A DNA stretch of 64,000 nt. It comes from Daphnia pulex. Taxonomy: Eukaryota; Arthropoda; Branchiopoda; Diplostraca; Daphniidae. Both the position numbers and the translations under genes were made by a program. This document shows, in pieces, positions 253-41,593 of the stretch; positions within the stretch are counted from its first letter, which is position 1; each line of letters opens with the position of its first letter. Below the pieces are notes generated by a model that worked only from the letters and a program-made list of their open reading frames with translations, did no database searches and was not told the origin of the DNA. Location of the stretch: contig NC_060027.1 in the NCBI RefSeq assembly GCF_021134715.1, positions 3,100,001 to 3,164,000 on the forward strand. The letters are read 5' to 3'.

Positions 253-1202
253 TCAGAGGAGGTTGCAATTTCTAGGTTTGGTCTTTGGTTTGTTTATAGC
301 TGTCCGAACAGCCTCTTGAAAGACTAGTCTCAAATTCTCGCCAGTCTTTGCAGAGCACTCGAGAAAAGGACCAACTTTCTTGCTCAGTTTGGCAGCCTCG
401 GCATAAGACACCTGCAATAATCTAAACATGTACAGAAATGTAAAATTTCAATAAGAAATGCTCGATTCCATACGCAATCCTCATCTGTAGGTCCCTCTTT
501 CCGGATATCAACTTTTGCTCCTACAAAACAGTCCAGTTTAATAATTATTAATTAATTTAAACGCGCTTCTTATTTTCAAATTGTTATACCGACGAGTACG
601 ATGGGCGCATTAGGGCAGTGGTGCTTCAATTCGGGAATCCATTTCGATGTGACGTTATTGAATGAAGTCCGATTGTTGACAGCGTAGCAAAGTAGGAACA
701 CGTCGGTCTTCTCAAAGATTAGCGTCATTATTATCAATTTGATAGATATTTAGTGTTGGTTAAAAATACATTAGGATACGAGAGAATGCGCAGCCTTTCG
801 TAGTCTTCCTGCCCGGCAGTGTCCCAGAGCGAAACATTGTACGCGTGTCCGTCCACTTCAATTGTTTCGGAAAAGTTATCAAATCTAAACAAATAATAAC
901 CATGATAACAAATAAAACCGTATTTAATAAAAAAATAAACCTTTAAACCACATCAAATTCAACGTGACATCACTGCCCTTCTTATCTGGCAAAAGATTAT
1001 ACTTTTGACATCACCTTTATATGGCTGGACAGGCCGGCAACTTTTATAAATTAATTTTGTTCTACAAGAAATGTATATAAACTTACACAGTTGGCACGTA
1101 TGTGACAGGGAAAACGTTCTTGGTGTACACAATCAGCACACACGTTTTTCCCACTGTGCCGTCGCCGACCACTGTTATCTTCAACGGTCGATCTCGAATC
1201 AT
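253..1202 (-). CDS. Rho-family small GTPase, five exons, CAAX box CNLL
   Basis: The hand-spliced model has exons 1202-1087, 884-770, 707-590, 520-474 and 411-253, giving 184 residues. All junctions use GT-AG and keep the frame. The protein starts [20 protein letters not shown], so the P-loop GDGTVGKT is at about residues 12-19. It continues with the switch I core [17 protein letters not shown], the switch II motif [13 protein letters not shown] and the G5 motif ECSAK. It ends in the CAAX box CNLL, which predicts geranylgeranylation and membrane attachment. Members of this family are GTP/GDP switches that control actin and polarity. Two features are odd. The nucleotide-specificity motif, usually TKxD or NKxD, reads AKVD. 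The Rho insert helix is missing, so the protein is slightly short. It is a divergent Rho/Rac-like protein and I cannot assign it to a named subfamily. It forms a head-to-head pair with the GTPase at 2265. Confidence 0.88.
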
Positions 1203-2264
1203 TTTCGCCAAAAACTGTGAGAGAGCTTCAACCGTAAAACCGGAACCTAATGGTTTTACCAGTTTATCACGTTACATCCACAATGTGCACGAGATTCCGG
1301 TGGAAGTGTTGAAGAGACGGAACCAGCAACCACAAGGGGAATCTACACTTTTTAATCTCGATCTTAGTCAGTGTTAGTCACACGCTGGAATCAACTAGGA
1401 AATTCACCCCCACCAAACACTCAATTTTATGAAACGTCTATTCAAGTGGAACTCGCCTCAAAATGTCGTCAGTTGGCTAACTGTTTTTTAAAAGACGAAT
1501 GCATCAAAAAGGACGGCCAGAGTTGTAGAATGTCCAGATAAGCACTATTTGATAAGACAAAACGGCCAAAGCATTTTCATGTCTGACCAAGCGATGAAGC
1601 AAGCGTCTAGGTTGAAAAAGTGGGCGGGACTTGTGTTATAATACACCGGCAATGATATAGAATGCCCGGCCCTGATGAAATATTACACCCTCGGCTTGCT
1701 CGGGGCAAAACAAAAAAAAAAATTAATTTGACAATAGTTGAAAACCAAAAAAAATAAATAGCCAATTTTGATCAAACCCTATCGCATTCCTTATGCAGAA
1801 CCATGAAGCTATAGAGGGGGACAAGGTCTATAGTCTTCCAACGAAACCGTAAGTGGAAAAACAAACTCATCAACGGATGACTACGCCCTATCGGACAAGA
1901 GAAACATCCGTTGTTGACGCACGAAAGAACAATTTCTTTCTTCACTTTCTCTCAAAACCAACATTAGATTCAAGATTATTTTTATTATTTTTAGAAATAA
2001 ATCAACAATAAAAAATAATACAACCCGTTTATAATTAACGAAACACGGAAAAGGAGCGATGGTTCTGACTCATTTGACGCACTTGAGGTTTGGGGCGGAT
2101 CGACATTGTGCGCACTGTGGTTTTTTCCCTAACGCGGAAGGAATATATAAACCAAGTTCGACAAAGTTAACAATTTAGTCGAACTCAAACCGCCGTGCAG
2201 TCGAAAAAGGTTTGGTGAGTGTAGTTTTTGTAAAGATACCCAGCACGGATTTCGTCTGAAGCGG
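1203..2264. other. Shared intergenic region between divergent GTPase genes
   Basis: About 1 kb separates the two start codons and presumably contains both promoters and 5'UTRs. It is AT-rich. I saw no further gene. A clear TATA box and initiator could not be assigned to either gene. Confidence 0.4.
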
Positions 2265-3118
2265 ATGAAGATGTCGGAACGTCCAATCAAGGTCTTGTTA
2301 GTCGGTAGCGGAACAGTTGGAAAAACTAGCCTGTGCACGGTCTACACCAAAAAATGTTTCCCCTCCAAATATGTTCCGACAGTGTTAGTCTTGTATTGTT
2401 TGTATTGACGATTGTAGAGTCTTTAAAATCTTATTTGTTTACCGTTATACAGAATGGAAATAGCCTTCTCCACCGTTGTGATCAATGATGTGACACACAG
2501 ATTGGCCATCTGGGATACAGCGGGACAGGAAGACTTCGACCGACTACGACTTTTGTCCTATCCTAATGTAAGATTAATTACCGCACATTTCCGGATATGA
2601 GTATATCTTTTAATTTTCGGTTTACCCATTATTGAATCGTTTACACAGACGGACGTCTTTTTAGTTTGCTACGCCATCGATGATCTCGATTCTTTTCAAC
2701 ACGTCTCGACAAAATGGATTCCAGAGTTACACAAACATAGCCCTGGCGTCCCAATCATTCTCGTTGGTAATAATCAAAATTTTTCGACTATTTGGCGTAA
2801 TACCCTTCATAATTTAATTTTACAAATTTGCAATTCAAGGTACTAAATTAGACAAGAGACATAAAGGTGAAACGCTTGAAAGCTATTTGGTAAGTACTAT
2901 TCAAATCTGCCGCAATTAAACTATTTAGAAAATTAAACAAGAATCCTATTAAATTATTCCAGGTTCCTTATAGTAGAGGACAAAGTTTGGCAGAGACCAT
3001 CGGAGTTGCTCATTTCGCCGAGTGCTCAGCTTTGAATGGGAAGAATGTGTCAAAAATATTTAAAATTGCAGCTGCTGCTGCTTTAGGATTAGATAAGAAG
3101 TCTTGCTGCATACTTTAA
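2265..3118 (+). CDS. Divergent Rho-family small GTPase, five exons, CAAX box CCIL
   Basis: The hand-spliced exons are 2265-2383, 2453-2567, 2649-2766, 2840-2889 and 2963-3118, giving 185 residues. The start ATG at 2265 gives MKMSERPIK; an in-frame ATG at 2271 is an alternative. The P-loop is GSGTVGKTS (canonical GDGAVGKT), switch II is [13 protein letters not shown], the specificity motif VGTKLD is intact, G5 is ECSAL and the tail CCIL is a prenylation CAAX box. After the conserved VPTV of switch I the effector loop reads [11 protein letters not shown]. It has lost the aromatic residues usual in Rho/Rac (VPTVFDNY), which suggests altered effector contacts. The Rho insert helix is reduced. Intron positions and phases match the paralogue at 253-1202, and exons 2 and 3 have the same lengths (115 and 118 bases), so the two arose by duplication. 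Confidence 0.87.
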
Positions 3119-3712
3119 AAAATGTTTGCGGTCTTAATTTTACGTTTGTGAACAGAATATTTTCATAATAATGCATATATTAGGTGTTGCAATAAATGGC
3201 TATTTAATATCAATTTGACACGGCGTGAAAAGAATTGATGGATGTCAACAGTCTTACCTTTCAATTTTGGTTTTCGGTCAATTTCCGGACTGAATTCACG
3301 TTCCGTGTAGTCGGTTTGTGGATGCTGGACGAATAAACATTTCACGATTCACTGAACAGCATCCAGTTTCATTTGTTCAGTCGTTTTCACACGCACACAG
3401 CAATTAACTTGGAAATATGACCCACACACTATAACCGATATAAACCCAATAGGACACGGGCAATCTGGTGAACGAATATCAACCACATAATTTCACTGAG
3501 CACAGAAAACACACCACTGTACACGAAACTTGTAGCATGGTGGATCGTGATGATATGACAAATTATGAAGAACTACACCTGGGTGGTTGGGGTAAAAAAA
3601 TATCGTCGTATATTAATTTACACTTACAAGACCAGACCATGCACACACATTATACTGCAGATTGCACTGAATAAAAATCACTGATGAAATATTTTTAATT
3701 ATTAATGACAAA
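3119..3712. other. Intergenic spacer, no gene seen
   Basis: AT-rich spacer between the 3' ends of the plus-strand GTPase and the minus-strand secreted-protein gene. It probably contains both 3'UTRs. The short open frames here show no recognisable protein. Confidence 0.4.
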
Positions 3713-7765: not shown

Positions 7766-7773
7766 ATTGAAAT
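7766..7773 (+). repeat. Left copy of the 8-bp target-site duplication ATTGAAAT
   Basis: ATTGAAAT directly precedes the left terminus CATAGCC of the palindromic element. The identical octamer follows the right terminus at 8597-8604. Confidence 0.85.
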
Positions 7774-7970
7774 CATAGCCTACTAAATATCACGGCCACA
7801 CATCTGGCTATCTCGCCGTTACCGAGAAGCTCCGCCTACTCCAGATCACGTGCTTGTCTGTGATTGGCCGTACCCCAAAATCGTTTCCATTTTCCACGGC
7901 TTCTTTCCAAACTTTTAAGTTCCTTGACGTCGTCTTGCATCCTGGTATGGTCAGAGTCGATATAATGTAA

Positions 7971-8040
7971 GCAATTGGTAGTCTAGTGGGTAGAGCGGTG
8001 GATTTCCATTAGAGTAATACTAGGTTCAAATCTGATCAAG
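7971..8040 (+). other. tRNA-like sequence in the left arm (pol III box A/B)
   Basis: TAGTCTAGTGGGTAGAGC resembles a tRNA D-arm and box A. AGGTTCAAATCT about 35 bases later matches box B and the T-loop (GGTTCRANTCC). The intervening segment contains TTTCCAT, which would give a UCC (Gly-like) anticodon, but the anticodon stem does not pair. It is therefore a degenerate tRNA-derived head as in SINEs, not a functional tRNA. T-rich runs downstream could terminate pol III. Confidence 0.6.
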
Positions 8041-8327
8041 TCATAATCAATTTTTCATAATTTTTTCTTGTTTTTTTCTAGATTTGTAAAGCGAATTAGA
8101 TGGAATGCCTAGATTCTGTAAAAAATGCGAGTTTTTTCACATTTTTTAAAACAAAATCTGAAATCTGAATTTGTTTTTTTTTCTAAGTCCTTGCCAAAGC
8201 GAACAAATTCAGATTTTGTTTTAAAAAATGTGAAAAAACTCGCATTTTTACAGAATCTAGGCATTCCATCTAATTCGCTTTACAAATCTAGAAAAAAAAC
8301 AAGAAAAAATTATGAAAAATTGATTAT

Positions 8328-8400
8328 GTCTTGATCAGATTTGAACCTAGTATTACTCTAATGGAAATCCACCGCTCTACCCACTAGACTACCAATTGCT
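8328..8400 (-). other. tRNA-like sequence in the right arm, inverted copy
   Basis: Reverse-complement copy of the left-arm tRNA-like segment with the same box A and box B. If both arms were transcribed by pol III, convergent transcripts through the loop would make a long hairpin RNA. Confidence 0.6.
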
Positions 8401-8596
8401 TACATTCAATCGACTCTGACCATACCAGGATGCAAGACGACGTCAAGGAACTTAAAAGTTTGGAAAGAAGCCGTGGAAAATGGAAACGATTTTGGGGTAC
8501 GGCCAATCACAGACAAGCACGTGATCTGGAGTAGGCGGAGCTTCTCGGTAACGGCGAGATAGCCAGATGTGTGGCCGTGATATTTAGTAGGCTATG

Positions 8597-8604
8597 ATTG
8601 AAAT
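8597..8604 (+). repeat. Right copy of the 8-bp target-site duplication ATTGAAAT
   Basis: Direct repeat of 7766-7773 just outside the right terminus GGCTATG. The pair defines the element's boundaries. Confidence 0.85.
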
Positions 8605-34140: not shown

Positions 34141-37100
34141 CCTATATTTTTAGAATTGTTTTTTTGTTTCGAGGAGAAAACACAATCGAATAACTTACTG
34201 TATAGCAATCAAACATTATTCATCCCCCACATCATCAGGCATTGAAAGAGATTATACTTTTCGTTCATTCCTTTTATCCCTCCCCCCCCTTTCTCCAGAG
34301 ATATATACCTAATATAAATGTGAGCAGTGTGTGACGATTATTCTTGAGATGTGTGTGTGGTGTGTGCACCAGGATGCAGAGACAACTCGTCAAATCAGGC
34401 TTCCCGGTTCCCAAACTTCCAAACAACTCATGAACGTGGTAGTGTACAAAATAAGTTTTTGAAATGGCTGTTGTGTCATGTCGTGTGTGTCCTTTCCGTC
34501 CGCCCACCGACAGCCCAAACGAGTTTTGGCCTTATGTAATTCATTCCTGAAACGTTGCAAGAACAAAAAAGTTTGAAAAAAAAAAGAATTCATTCGATTC
34601 AGGTCCTATAAAAAGAAAAACCAATTTAATTTATTTCCTTTTACCAAAACGTGTCACTTCCTTTTGCTCCCATTTCTCTTCTGATACGACCCATTCGGTT
34701 TCATTAAACATTTTTGTAACGAAAGAAAACAAAAAAAGACGAAAGAAAACAAAAACGTGACACGAAAAATTTGATACCCAGCCAGCACGAGTTGGAATCA
34801 TCAGAGAAATTGTATCCCGCCACACCGGAAGAATTCTCGTCTGCTCTCTCGCGGTGCTGTCATGTTGCCCTAAAAAATAATAATTTCCAGAAAATTCACA
34901 CACACACACACACAACGTTTTCCCTCCACTTTTTTTTTTTCTGAATTAAATCGTGTGTTTTTGTGTACATGTTCATTTTGCATATATTATATACAGAGTA
35001 AAAAAATAATAAGAAAACAACAATTTTTTGGTGTGGGTCTGACTGATGCGTGTGCTGTTTGTGTATGCTTTTTTTTCATTTCTTTATTCTCCCGATATTT
35101 TTTTTTTCCTTTTCCTTCTTCGTGACACTCGTGCAATTTCCGAACGATGTTCTCGAGTGACTCCTTATATATATATAATTTGCAATTATTATTATTATTT
35201 TTATTTTTTTTGGAAACGATAAAATACAGAAGTTGAACGTCTTTCACATCTCAGGAGGACTTCCAACATCGAACAACCAACACTTTATATTAAAAAAAAA
35301 AAAGAACAACAACCACAACAGCACTAAAAAGATTTATAAGTTCTCTTTCTCTTTCTTATTTTGCATAATGATTGTAATGGTGCTGTTAAAAGCTTTCTCG
35401 CCGAACCCCCCGTCCCACAAAACCCCCCCCCGTCCTCATGGTGTTCTATAAATATTATATACATTATATAAATATTATCTCTTCTTCTTTTTCCTCTTCT
35501 TCTCTTCTTTTCCCCCCATCTCTCTCGTAATCATCGGCACTTGTAACATGCACTGGTCACTGTGTTGAATGCGACTCGAAAACAAAAAAAAGACAGTTTA
35601 TAAAAAATCCAATCGACGTCTCTATGCAAATCAATTCCCGCATTTGAACCGAAATTTAGAGAAACTTGGCACAAAACAAAATTAATTAATTGACTATATA
35701 GTAAAATGAAGAAGAAGAAGAAATTTTTTTGAAAAATTGGTCCGAAATTGATTTTTTGATTGGAATCGATAACAATTGGGGCTGGCCCTTTTTAGTTTCC
35801 TTTTCAGTGTATGTGACCCATTGTATAATCCACACACTATTTTCTCTCTCTCTCTTTCTATCTCTCTTATTTCCTCGAAAAAACAATTCTATTTTCATCC
35901 GTGCTCTAATAAGATCGGTGCTGTATTTCTCCGTATATCTTTCTATGCGGCCCTCCCCCCCCCCCCAAACCCACCCACACTCCCCCGAAAACGAGTTATT
36001 ATCGATTTATATTTGTATAACACATTGTAATTTTTTTTTCGAAATAAAACAAAAAATGAAATTTTTTTCGTTTACAAAGAAATTGACATGTCTAATTCAT
36101 TTAGATTTTCAATTAATCATTGAATACCCTCGAAAATGAATTAAATAATAAGATATTCAATTAAAACACACACACACACCCCAGAAGCAGTTGGTTGCTG
36201 CTGGTCGATGACCATATTTGTGTGTGTGCCGCGTGTGTGTGTGTCTATATGGGTTGACAACAACGAACGCACCGAACGAGGAAGAGAAACTTTCTAACTC
36301 GTAAAAAATTAGGGCGCTCATGGTTTGTTGCTCTCCATCGGGCTCGATTCGTCCTGTATAATAATATAATACATAACATATGGTTATCATTGGCGTGACA
36401 GTTGAACACAGAAAAAGAAAAGATAAAAAGATAATATTGTATAGCTGTCTGCTGGATGGATGACAGATCGTCAAAGAGTGAAACGTACCGGAAGGTCGGA
36501 GACAGGGTGGTGCGTAATTTGCGCAGTCGTGTTGAAAATTTTATCATCAAAGGGGGATTTATAACTGGAGACCTTTGGTCTCTTTTTTTCTTTCTTTACT
36601 TCTTCTCGTCGGTCTGCTGTTGTTCGTGAATGACCTCATTTCTTTTTTTCACTTGTATAGTCAGTTTCCTCGACAGGAAAATTTGAATTCAAGTTGAAAA
36701 TCCGGATCGCTATATCAGCACAATGATCAATCAAGCGAGGAAAAGACCTCGATTTTATTTCCCAACGTCGAGAATCATTATATTGTGCCTCGCGCCTAGC
36801 GTCGCCAGTTTCCCTCCGGGACTTTTGGGGTTTAACTAACTTAAATGAGGGAGTGTGCTTAATACATTTTTGGGGGTTAGGGGTAAGGTTATATATAGGT
36901 TAAGTATTTTTTCGCGCAATGTAGGGTCGGTAGGGTGATTGCTTGGCGCTTATTATGGGGTGTAACTGTAATCCAGGAGCACGCCTAAGTATTTTTTTTT
37001 TTCGGTTACCTTTTGACCAGTTTCACAACTTGTATCATTTGGATCCCTATCATGTTGGAATTGAAGCCATTTAATGCACCTTTAGAAAGCCGGACTATCT

Positions 37101-37646
37101 AGGCAACAAATTTTGTTTTCTAATGAAGAGAGGGCAGAATTTTCTTCAACTCACTTATAGATTAGCGAAGTGTGATTTATGGATCAACTTAGTCGAGTAG
37201 CCTAGTGAATTTCTTACTGAAGCATTTTAAGTCGCATCCTAATTTATGCAACCAACTCCGCGGATTATCCTCCACGAATAACCAATTCCATTCGTCATCA
37301 TTTTTCTAAAATCATTTCTCATGACCAAAATGTTAAGCTCTATGTAGTACCGCTTTTCTATTCGAAACTCGGTGTCGATGTATAGCTGTCACAAGCAGGG
37401 GTATGGAGAGAAATCGAACAAAGTTTTTATATAGCAAACCGCGATTGGTTGTATTAAATTCCAACTCTTAACACGTAGTTATACAATGCCAGGAATGAGG
37501 GAGCAACGCAATGAAGTGAAGCCATGATTTTAAGACAATAAGACTAGTTTTATCATATGAATGCCCTCATTCCAGTTCGCAAAAACGCTGAAATAAGAAC
37601 AATTTAGAGAAACTGAGTTTGTGTTTCATAACAGTATTTGACACGT
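34141..37646. other. 3'UTR of the zinc-finger gene and intergenic sequence
   Basis: AT-rich with homopolymers, (CA) tracts and TATATA runs. AATAAA-type signals, for example near 36043, could end a long 3'UTR. An unusual G-rich stretch with GGGTTAGGGGTAAGG lies near 36870. No gene recognised on either strand. Confidence 0.4.
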
Positions 37647-38113
37647 TTAATCGCCTTTCTCCAGCGAGAAGCATTTTCATCATTCTCCAATGGCGGCATC
37701 TCTTCTTCGGCTTTGGCTTCCTCACCACCAGCAGGGACATCATCTTCACCGATACCCAAACCCAATTTCATCATGTGGTAGATGCGAGAAGCATGGACGT
37801 CTGGCTCTTCCAGGGAGAAACCAGATGACAGCAGAGAGGTTTCAAACAGCAACATGACCAAATCCTTGACGGCTTTGTCGTTCTTGTCAGCCTCTGCTTT
37901 GACGCGCAGGGCTTCGACGATGGGATGGTCGGAGTTGATTTCCAAGTGCTTCTTGGCGGCCATGTAATCCATGGTGGAGGTATCCCTCAAAGCCTGAGCC
38001 TTCACTTCATGATACGCTCCATGTTGACGGTCCAGCCGTACTGGGAGGTGACGATACAGCAGGGAGACTTGAAAATGACGACCATCTCGACTTTCTTGTC
38101 CGTTTCTTGTGGC
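37647..38113 (-). pseudogene. Hsp90: Hsp90 pseudogene, C-terminal fragment
   Basis: Encodes the end of a cytosolic Hsp90: [12 protein letters not shown], then [53 protein letters not shown] and [15 protein letters not shown]. There are two lesions. A 5-base insertion (TGAAG repeated) near 38004 follows IMK and puts a stop in frame. A one-base loss near 37660 destroys the ATG of the terminal MEEVD co-chaperone motif, so the frame runs past the original stop site at 37647. The segment just before SPCC ([11 protein letters not shown]) is also degraded. The fragment lies in the same orientation as the N-terminal fragment at 39993-40575, with IP3 receptor sequence between them. Confidence 0.9.
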
Positions 38114-38153
38114 AAAAATAAAAGAATTTCAATATGGAACATGGAAATCTTAC

Positions 38154-39992
38154 ATGAAACTGAAATACCCGATGATGGAGAACATGAAGACTAGGATGAG
38201 AGCCAAAACGGCAGCGAGAACGATGGACCTGCCGTTTCGCGTCACTGAGCGGATGACGTTGAGCAGCGTCTCCTCGCGGTAGACGACGTCAAACAAAAGG
38301 ACGGAGAAGAAGAACGAATGGGTGGTGCTGAGTCCGAGGAAGCAAAAGATGAGGTGAACGACGTGGTAGACAATCTCCGTGTCCGTGCAGATTTGTCTGA
38401 CGCTCCGCTGGAATGTCCCGGCGTTGGCCATGATGCTCAGCAGATGGACGCCCTTCAACACTACCGTGGCGGTGCCAAGGAGCATCAGTGTGGGTTGAGG
38501 GCCGGCTGAGCAAATAAGCCGGAGGATGACTGTCATGACGAGAGTCCTAATAACCGACGGTTTGGGTAACGTGATGGCCACAGCGGTGGATAGGAGCATG
38601 ACGGCCCAGATGAGACCTGAATTAATAAACAAAAAAGATCGTTGAAAAGATGGAAATGGGAGTCACTGTTTAAAGGTGTGCAGACCTGAGAGGTGAGTGC
38701 GAGGATCAGGAGCCGGTCCGTCAGTGTCAAACGGGTAAAAGAAGGCGACAATCAAGTTGATAATGACGGCCAAATTGAAGAGGATTTGACTCCAGATGGA
38801 CATGTGCGAGCTGACCCAAAAGAGAAACGGCTGTCCGCGCAATTTCTTCTGCCATTTCATCTCGTCAAACATGTCGTCGACTCCTTCGAAGAAGGCGGCC
38901 ACTTTCGATCCCTGGTCGTCGCGCTCCGCCGTGTGGAAGACGCGCACTTTCGTGTCGTTGGTCAAATACTCGCACATTTCCGGAATGGGGAAGACAATCT
39001 GCTCCATCGTCCGGTCGTGACGGACAATTTCGATTTGCGCCGTGTGATTGGCGTAGTACTGCAGGGCCGCATCACCACTGACTCCGTCCACTGGCGGCGG
39101 TTTCATCAGGGCGGCCAATTCTTTGTTGTGCTGCGCCAACTGGTGGCACAAAATGTAAATGTTGTGGCCGACTTCTTTGGGACTAGTCGCCTCTTCTCCA
39201 CCGACCAAACTTTTCTGATAGGCTTAGCAGGCAACGTCCACTAATTGGTGAGGATTCATGTTGTACAGGATCCTTTCCGCGTTCTCGCTGTCGCCACGAC
39301 TCTCCATGACGGCCAGCAACAACTTGGAGGCGTTGTTTTTCAACTCCAAAACAAGATCCATTCTCCGTTTTCCTAAATAATTGATCAAATAATTATTAGA
39401 ATCAAATGGAATGAAAGGAAATTGTTACCTAATGGATTGATGTCGGTAAGAAGAAGAGCCGTGATGATGTCCAGTCCATTCGACTCGTGAGTGGCGATGC
39501 AGTTTTGGTTTTCGTGACAAGGTCCTTGGCAATATTCCGTCAATGTTTCCAGGGTTTGGTTGATGAGGGTGACGTTGTGCTCATTAATGTAGAGGCCGAG
39601 CAGACCCAGTTCGCCCGTCGTCGATCCGCAAATGCAGTCGAGGAACATGAGTGTCTCTGACACTAAATTGTAACTGTTTTTGTTGGACTGGGCCCGCAAA
39701 AAGTTCTGCAGGTCTCGATTGTGATTCTCACACAGCAACTGCAGGAAGCGGAAGACGGGCAGCATTACCAGAACCTTGGCGGACAACTTGGACTCCATGT
39801 CCGAATCAGTTGCCGTAGTTAACTTTAAGGGCGAATTAAATTTATTTTTGTAAGAATTTTAATAAAATCACGAATTCAAGTTTTGTTGTACCGATTTGGG
39901 TTGTTGTTGTTGTCTCACCAAGTCCTCCAGCGTCGAGTTGACACTACTCAACGTCGTTGTAGTCGAATCATCCAGCCTGGAGCTGGATACTA
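38154..39992 (-). pseudogene. Itpr: IP3 receptor fragment (C-terminal cytosolic part and transmembrane exons), disrupted
   Basis: Four exons with intact GT-AG introns: 39992-39892, 39822-39429, 39372-38686 and 38616-38154. They encode the region before and into the channel domain: [91 protein letters not shown] and hydrophobic transmembrane segments ending IIGYFSF. Known family members are ER calcium-release channels. An in-frame TAA (39224-39226) interrupts VDVAC*AYQKS where the family has a Lys. The pore-loop and C-terminal exons that should follow are absent and the sequence passes into Hsp90. The piece is truncated on both sides and cannot make a channel. Retained introns show DNA-level duplication rather than retroposition. 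Confidence 0.88.
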
Positions 39993-40575
39993 CAAGTGGA
40001 GGACAATCTTGGTTCCTCTACCCATGGGTTCTCTGTGATCAGGCTTGATGGTGAAAGAACCACCAGCTGAAGATTCCCAAACATACTGCTCATCATCATT
40101 GTGCTAGGAATGAACTGTCACCTTGTCGGCAACCAGGTAAGCAGAGTAGGAACCCACACCAAACTGACCAATCATGGAGATGTCAGCTCCGGCAGAGAGG
40201 GCTTCCACGAAAGCTTTAGTTCCAGACTTGGCAATAGTACCCAAGTTGTTAACCAAATCAGCCTTGATCATGCCGATACCACTAAAGAGAAACAGAACAG
40301 TCAAATTCGTGTTCAAATAGGAGGAACTAAATTTCTCAACTTACGTATCCATGAGAGTGAGTCATTCTTGTTGGGGACAATCTTGATTTTAAGATCCTTG
40401 CCGCTGTCCAACTTGCTTGGGTCAGTCAGGGATTCATAATGGATCTTGTCTAGGGCATCTGAGCAGTTGGAGATCAACTATAGAAGGTGTTGATAATCAA
40501 GCTCATAAGCTGAGCAATCTTGGCCTGGAATGTCAAAGTCTCAGCTTCATCTTCCATTTGAACTTCTCCAGGCAT
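39993..40575 (-). pseudogene. Hsp90: Hsp90 pseudogene, N-terminal ATPase-domain fragment
   Basis: Starts [33 protein letters not shown] at 40575, followed by [82 protein letters not shown] and the glycine loop region. Lesions: loss of the segment NKEIFLRE (near 40479), which shifts the frame and removes part of the ATP-binding helix; a nonsense TAG at 40104-40106 in [14 protein letters not shown]; and an abrupt end after TKIVLHL near 39993. One intron (40344-40282) keeps its splice sites, so this is a decayed duplicated gene, not a processed copy. A 5'UTR donor-like GTAAGT near 40738 suggests the ancestral leader intron is also kept. Confidence 0.92.
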
Positions 40576-41593
40576 CTAAAAAGGGAAAGGAAAATATTTC
40601 AGTAAGAAATGTTTGTCAATTGTGGTAGATTGCACTCACAAATTGAAATTCTACATACTATCTATGGACTTGAGGCATACCAAAAAATGTGTAAATAACC
40701 AATTTGTTTGTCTAAACCAGTAGTAAAACTGGTAAAACTTACTTTGCATTTAAACGTAAACAAACAAACCCGACGCTTTTCTGTTCACGTTTGGTGGGGA
40801 TCTACATGTATACAAGGCCGCCGGGCAGTCGTAAAAACTGCTACCAAATTCGCTTCTTGTTAGGCCTGCAAACTATAGCTTTTGGGTTGACACACATCAA
40901 GCCGGGAAAGTGAGCCCGTTCGACTTTGAATCGCTGTGTAAAAAATACAGCTATTAGTATATCTTCATGTGATCCATTTTGAAGACCTTTCTTTGTTTAA
41001 TCTCTTTCATACAAAAATTTTCGTGATAAGAAACACATTTACGTAAATTTTGTATTAATGTTTAGTGTCGTTTTGAATTTGCAGTTTGAATTGCAGCGGT
41101 GGCGTTTCGAAACTGAGCCCCGTTTGACTTAGAATCGCTGTTTTAAAAAATGAATATAGTATATCTTCGTAAAATGTGATCCATTTTAAAGAGATTTCTT
41201 TGTTTAATCTAATGCCTACAAAAATTTGCGTGATTGGTGACACAATTACGTAAATTTAAGTGTCTAATTACTGCAATTGAATTTTGCAGTTTGAATTGCA
41301 GCGGTGGCGTGTCGAAACTGAGCCTCCTTCGACTGTGACTAGAATCCCTACGGGAAATTATTGGTTTTAATTTATACGTCCTTCGAATTTGGCGCGCTGG
41401 GAATTCGATATTCCGCGCATTGAATCCGCGCATCTTGTAACAGGTTCCCATCTCGTCACCTGACGACATTTTCACTTTGTGGTCGTTTCTTGTTTACAAT
41501 GGGTTGTTATTGATAAACCCAATCTCGTGTAAATTATTTTTTTCCTGGATTTCCATTGCAGTATAACCGACGAATATACATTTCTCTTCCGCA
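40576..41593. other. Intergenic region between the Hsp90 pseudogene and UBAC2
   Basis: Contains the old Hsp90 leader and promoter and the UBAC2 promoter and leader. Its main feature is a direct tandem repeat of about 205 bases (40910-41340). No further coding sequence seen. Confidence 0.4.
40905..41340 (+). repeat. Direct tandem repeat, about 205-bp unit, just over two copies
   Basis: The marker GAGCCC..TTCGACTT recurs at 40912, 41115 and 41320 (as GAGCCTCCTTCGACT). Matching interiors include ATAGTATATCTTC, GTGATCCATTTT(A/G)AAG, TTTCTTTGTTTAATCT and TTTGCAGTTTGAATTGCAGCGGTGGCGT. The copies have diverged by substitutions and small indels, so the duplication is not recent. It lies upstream of UBAC2. 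Confidence 0.82.

Follow-up and report, generated by a model that had tools for sequence, protein, structure and literature searches.

Hsp90 and ITPR sequences at the locus

The window is a 64,000-nucleotide stretch of Daphnia pulex DNA, C11:3100001-3164000 of a 133.19-Mb assembly of 13 contigs (denoted C1, C2 and so on). On its minus strand, parts of two host genes lie in the order Hsp90, ITPR (IP3 receptor), Hsp90, and alignment to the parental genes of the same assembly gives the same joints (Table 1). This order and the collinear orientation of the parts, proposed in a preliminary description made from the sequence alone, are confirmed by the parental alignments and by Pfam and PDB matches. 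The Hsp90 C-terminal part matches PF00183 (1.6e-29), and the ITPR exons match PDB chains of ITPR2 (1.7e-70) and ITPR1 (8.4e-49).

The introns of both genes are present in the window copy, as had been described. The Hsp90 N-terminal part comprises the end of the pre-ATG intron, the exon with the ATG (40575), one intron and the next exon. Reading against the parental gene upheld the count of at least four Hsp90 lesions, and the single nonsense codon reported for ITPR is indeed present. Likewise, the ITPR part lacks the pore exons, although the parental gene on C7 has them; the captured ITPR DNA ends within an intron, one base short of a complete acceptor AG. Two boundaries had to be moved. The last ITPR exon had been ended at TTCAT/GTAAG, whereas the parent-like end is GG/GTATTTC (38169), and the unit had been taken to span 37647..40575, whereas the real unit is larger. 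Its length is 4576 bp (~4.58 kb) if both terminal Ts are included, one T being the target's.

Table 1. Features of the element in the window (positions are those of the 64,000-nucleotide window).
Feature	Position	Strand	Remarks
Whole mobile element	36782..41357	-	both ends common to siblings with different flanks
5' end with palindromic sub-terminal repeat TTTCCCGTAGGGA	41345..41357	-	
~205-bp tandem duplication of the element's own 5' region	40906..41334	-	two copies, ~80% alike
Hsp90 N-terminal part	39990..40704	-	85.6% to intact gene
Short junction stretch, remnant of last deletion	39986..39989	-	382-395 bp in four D' siblings
ITPR genomic fragment	38110..39985	-	95.6% to C7 gene
ITPR exon, RIH_assoc domain	39429..39822	-	Pfam RIH_assoc 1.1e-33
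ITPR exon with nonsense codon	38686..39372	-	TAA at 39226-39224
ITPR exon, first part of transmembrane region	38169..38616	-	donor GG/GTATTTC
9-nt filler at ITPR/Hsp90 joint	38101..38109	-	partly copies adjoining Hsp90 letters
Hsp90 C-terminal coding part and sequence past stop codon	37411..38101	-	89.5% to intact gene
3' sub-terminal repeat TCCCGGAGGGAAA	36809..36821	-	inverted relative of 5' repeat, 10/13 letters
Conserved 3' end GGGAAACTGGCGACGCTAGGCGCGAGGCACAAT	36782..36814	-	

Both parental genes, whose divergence from the chimera the preliminary description had wished to see compared, were found in the same assembly. The Hsp90 parent lies on C10, with its ATG at 16240683 and a 718-codon frame without interruption, and is the closest uninterrupted Hsp90 among 60 matches in a PF00183 profile search of the assembly. 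Many of the 60 are broken pieces, several with the window's TGA, and a multi-exon row of matches at C2:316592-318997 may be another Hsp90-family gene. The ITPR parent is at C7:12199305-12204179, where the exons, including those of the pore, are open across the 4.9 kb examined. The two genes, suggested in the preliminary description to have possibly been neighbours in the ancestor, are on different contigs of this assembly.

Other host-gene copies were also encountered. Another ITPR copy, at C8:5362820-5366799, is degenerate; it has an internal deletion and includes some later exons, and the stretch examined there contains no Hsp90 match or element end. The intact Hsp90 gene has an ITPR/Hsp90 element copy (C10:16225756-16229383) ~11 kb away, and a further Hsp90 fragment (C10:16229592-16230332) is on the same contig.

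A repeated element with defined ends

The rearrangement is a repeat and not a single-copy event; it forms part of a transposable element whose ends can be defined. When the assembly was searched at the DNA level with window positions 37000-41500, at least 91 matches were returned (best 39 of 68 candidates scored), and copy numbers are lower bounds because genome searches score the best candidates in this manner. Three siblings span both joints at 99-100% in the assembly DNA search, and at least 22 mapped copies carry both Hsp90 and ITPR. Among the stretches examined, 21 loci of 3271-6412 bp, with different flanks, have exactly one exact 5' end and one exact 3' end; these include the window's copy and two of a sister lineage described below. 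The nearest sibling, at C10:13945053, differs from the window copy by one substitution and one indel across 4576 bp.

The ends themselves are dispersed through the genome. The 3' 32-mer is found at 28 places with up to three mismatches (control 0), the first 19 letters of the 3' end at 31 places with up to two mismatches (control 1), and the 5'-end 22-mer at 33 places with up to three mismatches, 22 of them exact (control 0). One more Hsp90-only copy, at C7:11982345, is known from search matches alone and stands outside the mapped set. At C11:6066057-6066306, 3'-end-like and 5'-end-like sites of the element family lie ~210 bp apart in opposite orientation.

An assembly chimera, which the preliminary description had kept in view as an artefactual origin, is very unlikely because eight contigs contain the ITPR/Hsp90 joint, within flanking sequence that differs. 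Overall, the preliminary interpretation is partly supported.

Insertion site and movement

A triple nest at C2:12660678-12674227, in which one element lies inside a second that lies inside a third, provides two empty target sites. When the flanks are joined with one T kept, uninterrupted matches (10-base arms) are present in 9 of 28 other stretches for the inner element and in 12 of 28 for the middle one, whereas joining with no T or with two Ts gives 0 of 28. Since the empty sites fit only when one T is kept, one terminal T belongs to the target and insertion occurs at TT. Apart from one ambiguous T, which could be a 1-bp T duplication, the target is not duplicated, and the two empty sites are compatible with T^T, or with T^T and G^T, as insertion registers.

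The target preference appears to extend past TT. At all 24 exact 5' ends, which have 24 distinct flanks (raw count, with the C9:7017767 copy excluded for its differing first bases), position -2 of the 5' flank is A, and position -1 is A, G or T and never C; in the window these positions are 41358-41359. The element has been recently active, the copying of the window element and of its sibling on C10 being recent. Judging from its class, the element would move by a rolling-circle route.

Probable stepwise construction of the cargo

The forms of the cargo are given here by positions within the parental Hsp90 and ITPR loci. Family A (four copies, the longest siblings) consists of Hsp90 678-1656, Hsp90 2249-2695, ITPR 305-3375 and Hsp90 2692-3401. 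The D' form, in four copies (C5, C3, and the inner and middle elements of the C2 nest), has Hsp90 678-1669, ITPR 1364-3375 and Hsp90 2692-3401, with a junction stretch of 394 bp in the C5 and inner C2 copies. The D form, also in four copies (the C11 window, C10:13945053, C2:379769 and C8:13340337), is D' minus ~390 bp over the first joint, and its C8 representative has an extra deletion in the Hsp90 end. Form C, in eight copies, has Hsp90 647-1039, ITPR 1417-3208 and Hsp90 3182-3401, except that ITPR begins at 1799 in one copy. Two further forms with one copy each complete the 22 two-gene copies.

The preliminary description read the chimera as a swap in which ITPR replaced an internal block of Hsp90. 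This reading fails, as in family A a single insertion point has Hsp90 to its left and right, and 3-4 bp occur in both of the flanking Hsp90 pieces. ITPR was therefore inserted without loss of Hsp90 at that point, and the middle of Hsp90 was lost later by separate deletions. In the Hsp90-only copies (three, plus the outermost element of the C2 nest) the insertion point lies within deleted sequence, which removes the evidence of whether they predate the insertion, and no mapped copy keeps the state that preceded ITPR insertion.

The joints of the insertion are precise. At the Hsp90/ITPR joint, all four family A copies share GAC, a 3-bp microhomology. Of the 14 copies mapped as far as the ITPR/Hsp90 joint, the 10 compared in sequence all have the same 9-nt filler there, and two of the 10 differ by one base just before the filler. 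After the filler, Hsp90 resumes at the same GAC as in the other joint. A single insertion event accounts for all copies. The joints are most naturally read as end-joining repair of a double-strand break, with a template switch as a possible alternative. The ectopic repair or template switching proposed in the preliminary description stands as a likely origin of the joint, and falls as an account of a single locus.

Boundaries common to the copies suggest that the element would first have acquired genomic Hsp90, from the pre-ATG intron to beyond the stop codon. A break within the Hsp90 part would then have been repaired with ~3.07 kb of genomic ITPR DNA, leaving joints (3-bp microhomology, Hsp90-like filler) like those of polymerase-theta-type end joining, the mechanism that we infer. 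Internal deletions made several shorter forms, including that of the window by loss of ~390 bp from D', and transposition multiplied these forms, as is shown by the ends that the copies share, by their differing flanks, and by the nests and empty sites. It is conceivable, at a little under an even chance in our judgement, that the rolling-circle family acquires host genes internally, by break repair in its own body, and not by passing its 3' end. If so, the series from Hsp90 to ITPR within Hsp90 to deletions, along with the sister-lineage cargo, would constitute a direct animal record of such acquisition.

Sister copies with other cargo

Two sister copies (C2:10227909-10232876 and C10:14041617-14046709) have in common with the window element 610 bp at the 5' end (~90%) and 104 bp at the 3' end (~84%). 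Their cargo differs from Hsp90 and ITPR and is host-like, and Pfam and PDB searches gave it no identity. Its best outside matches, C6:5059700-5063209 (74-77%) and C2:836325-837977 (81%), are joined end to end in the cargo, and weaker partial matches are found elsewhere in the assembly. Because this lineage bears other host-like cargo, the element family looks like a repeated gene carrier. A further sister copy, at C1:7899092-7901665, adjoins a 5'-end place.

Age and constraint of the cargo

Codon comparisons were made after dropping codons with gaps or N and columns with fewer than five copies, and stop codons were also dropped in pairwise dN/dS. Hsp90 differs from its parent by fixed silent changes at 20 of 213 sites and by 11 fixed replacements (counted over two coding parts in 25 copies; the intact gene is outside the 25). 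For ITPR the corresponding numbers are 10 of 364 and 0 (22 copies; the C7 gene and the C8 ITPR copy are outside the 22). The greater number of fixed silent differences indicates that Hsp90 was captured before ITPR, with relative ages that are rough because Hsp90 silent distances range from 0.10 to 0.35 by part. Joint capture of Hsp90 2249-2695 (94% identity) with ITPR was considered and rejected, as its silent distance of 0.145 is near the 0.124 of the N-terminal part.

ITPR differs from its parent by 0.09-0.11 at intron positions and 0.06-0.095 at silent sites, and its dN/dS to the parent is low (0.12-0.27). A donor from a diverged lineage, considered as the cause of this low ratio, appears not to be needed. 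Seven of the 10 fixed sites are readable in the C8 ITPR copy, where five match the elements, two match neither and none match the C7 gene, and the fixed ITPR changes are therefore mostly on the gene's own branch.

Variants among the ITPR copies comprise 58 silent, 116 replacement and 11 stop changes. The comparison of 58:127 among copies with 10:0 fixed gives a Fisher p of 1.7e-5, which is rough because the copies share ancestry. Between families, dN/dS is mostly 0.4-0.7; transition bias and the dropped stop codons may explain values below 1, and weak constraint on a source copy is a possible alternative. As judged from these codon patterns, the cargo appears to be under little or no protein constraint and to encode no clearly constrained protein.

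Class of the element

We conclude that the locus is, with high probability, one copy of a non-autonomous transposon of rolling-circle type, for which Helentron/HINE is the best fit, and that its host genes were captured in steps. HINE/DINE-1 elements are described in PMC4067079 as non-autonomous Helentrons with palindromic sub-terminal repeats, insertion at TT and no target duplication. The window element resembles that description in its palindromic sub-terminal repeats, terminal T runs, TT target, absence of target duplication (the two empty sites fit this, with one T ambiguous) and lack of coding capacity for transposition. The 5' repeat (TT + TCCCGTAGGGA) agrees with the spacing of 2-4 nt from the 5' end that characterises Helentrons, and the 3' repeat TCCCGGAGGGA, which matches it at 10 of 13 letters, is 29 nt from the end versus 38-60 nt in mite HINEs. 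Also unlike HINE/DINE-1 as described there, the sub-terminal sequence differs, no 3' stem-loop exceeds those of shuffled sequences, and the window family is 3.3-6.4 kb long with multi-kb, intron-bearing cargo.

The 5' end folds no better than shuffles (z -0.62), and the short weak stem at the 3' end is likewise no better (z -0.22). A profile search of this one assembly located PF14214 at 52 places, among which there is no autonomous Rep/helicase/endonuclease partner with these ends. The place nearest to any of 65 end places is 19 kb away in the wrong orientation, and the next is at 33 kb. One Rep element region has Rep and PIF1 domains and no endonuclease, and shows no convincing match to the window element over the stretch examined, which is without that element's own ends. 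Because of the weak folds, the 29-nt distance of the 3' repeat and the lack of an autonomous partner, we label the element Helentron-like, not a proven member of the group.

There is some support for a gene-carrying transposon of another class, such as an unrecognised cut-and-paste or recombinase element. No matching Rep/helicase partner is present, the ends fold like shuffles, A is invariant at -2 in 24/24 flanks, and a 1-bp T duplication is possible. However, cut-and-paste hallmarks are absent, there being no terminal inverted repeats and at most one ambiguous T duplicated, and the TT insertion and the palindromic sub-terminal repeats at both ends also speak against this class, which we regard as unlikely. 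More improbable still, and strongly so, is a canonical Helitron family such as HeliDaph, even though PMC2884549 reports Helitrons, with tandem arrays, from D. pulex and the assembly has its 52 PF14214 places. The element begins TTTCCC and ends CACAAT, not 5'-TC and 3'-CTRR, and the empty sites do not have the canonical insertion between A and T.

Origin at a single locus, by ectopic repair or a template switch between Hsp90 and ITPR, is hardly credible. Its appeal is that the joints resemble break repair, but the 22 mapped two-gene copies, their common outer ends on different flanks and the four copies that retain Hsp90 on both sides of the ITPR insert stand against it, and this multi-copy structure refutes it as a full account. 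A processed pseudogene was likewise rejected, since both genes keep introns. It is also quite improbable that the chimeric copies are functional, whether through a truncated ITPR protein or through a regulatory RNA against Hsp90 or ITPR. Several copies do have long open ITPR frames, and between-family dN/dS is below 1, but replacement and stop variants pile up among copies. Moreover, no Hsp90 promoter was identified in the element, because its Hsp90 part starts within the pre-ATG intron.

Relation to known gene-capturing elements

Gene-capturing rolling-circle elements are known and are rarely reported for Helentrons, and the window element is a well-resolved addition. In the account of PMC4067079, Helentron gene capture is described and is rare; beyond earlier annotated examples, the gene fragments given there are only histone pieces from Culex (244 bp and 87 bp) and a 1688-bp fragment from Phytophthora. 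For maize Helitrons, PMC3288121 describes how several gene fragments were captured step by step, and the window family resembles these elements in sequential capture, internal loss and nesting. The maize elements are canonical Helitrons as presented in that source; in contrast to them, this arthropod family preserves a joint inside an earlier captured gene, a filler and a deletion series.

HeliDaph of D. pulex, as described in the text of PMC2884549, resembles the family in its rolling-circle type and its clustered copies. In that paper, 'captur' and 'gene fragment' have 0 occurrences. Literature on Daphnia Helitrons and Helentrons, gene capture and Hsp90 pseudogenes yielded no such element among the matches listed (titles and abstract openings). 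For the question of how rolling-circle elements pick up genes, the window family offers a preserved case. The capture route is testable because both nested-capture joints, deletion intermediates, parents and empty sites are present in one assembly.

Daphnia HSP90 nuclear-marker primers have been published (PMC1852300, as given there). On the intact Hsp90 gene they have 0 and 1 mismatches and predict a product of 830 bp; on the Hsp90-only copies C10:7756684-7761188, C10:7764871-7769375 and C6:6570540-6574130 they have 0 and 2 mismatches and predict products of 815-817 bp. By these primer predictions, element copies could be a paralogue trap in Daphnia phylogeography. The element accounts for scattered Hsp90 pseudogenes in a genus that is studied with HSP90 as a nuclear marker.

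Elsewhere in the window, positions 7766-8604 form a large near-perfect inverted repeat with 312-nt arms that are 98% complementary and further inverted arms nested inside, which looks like a foldback element.
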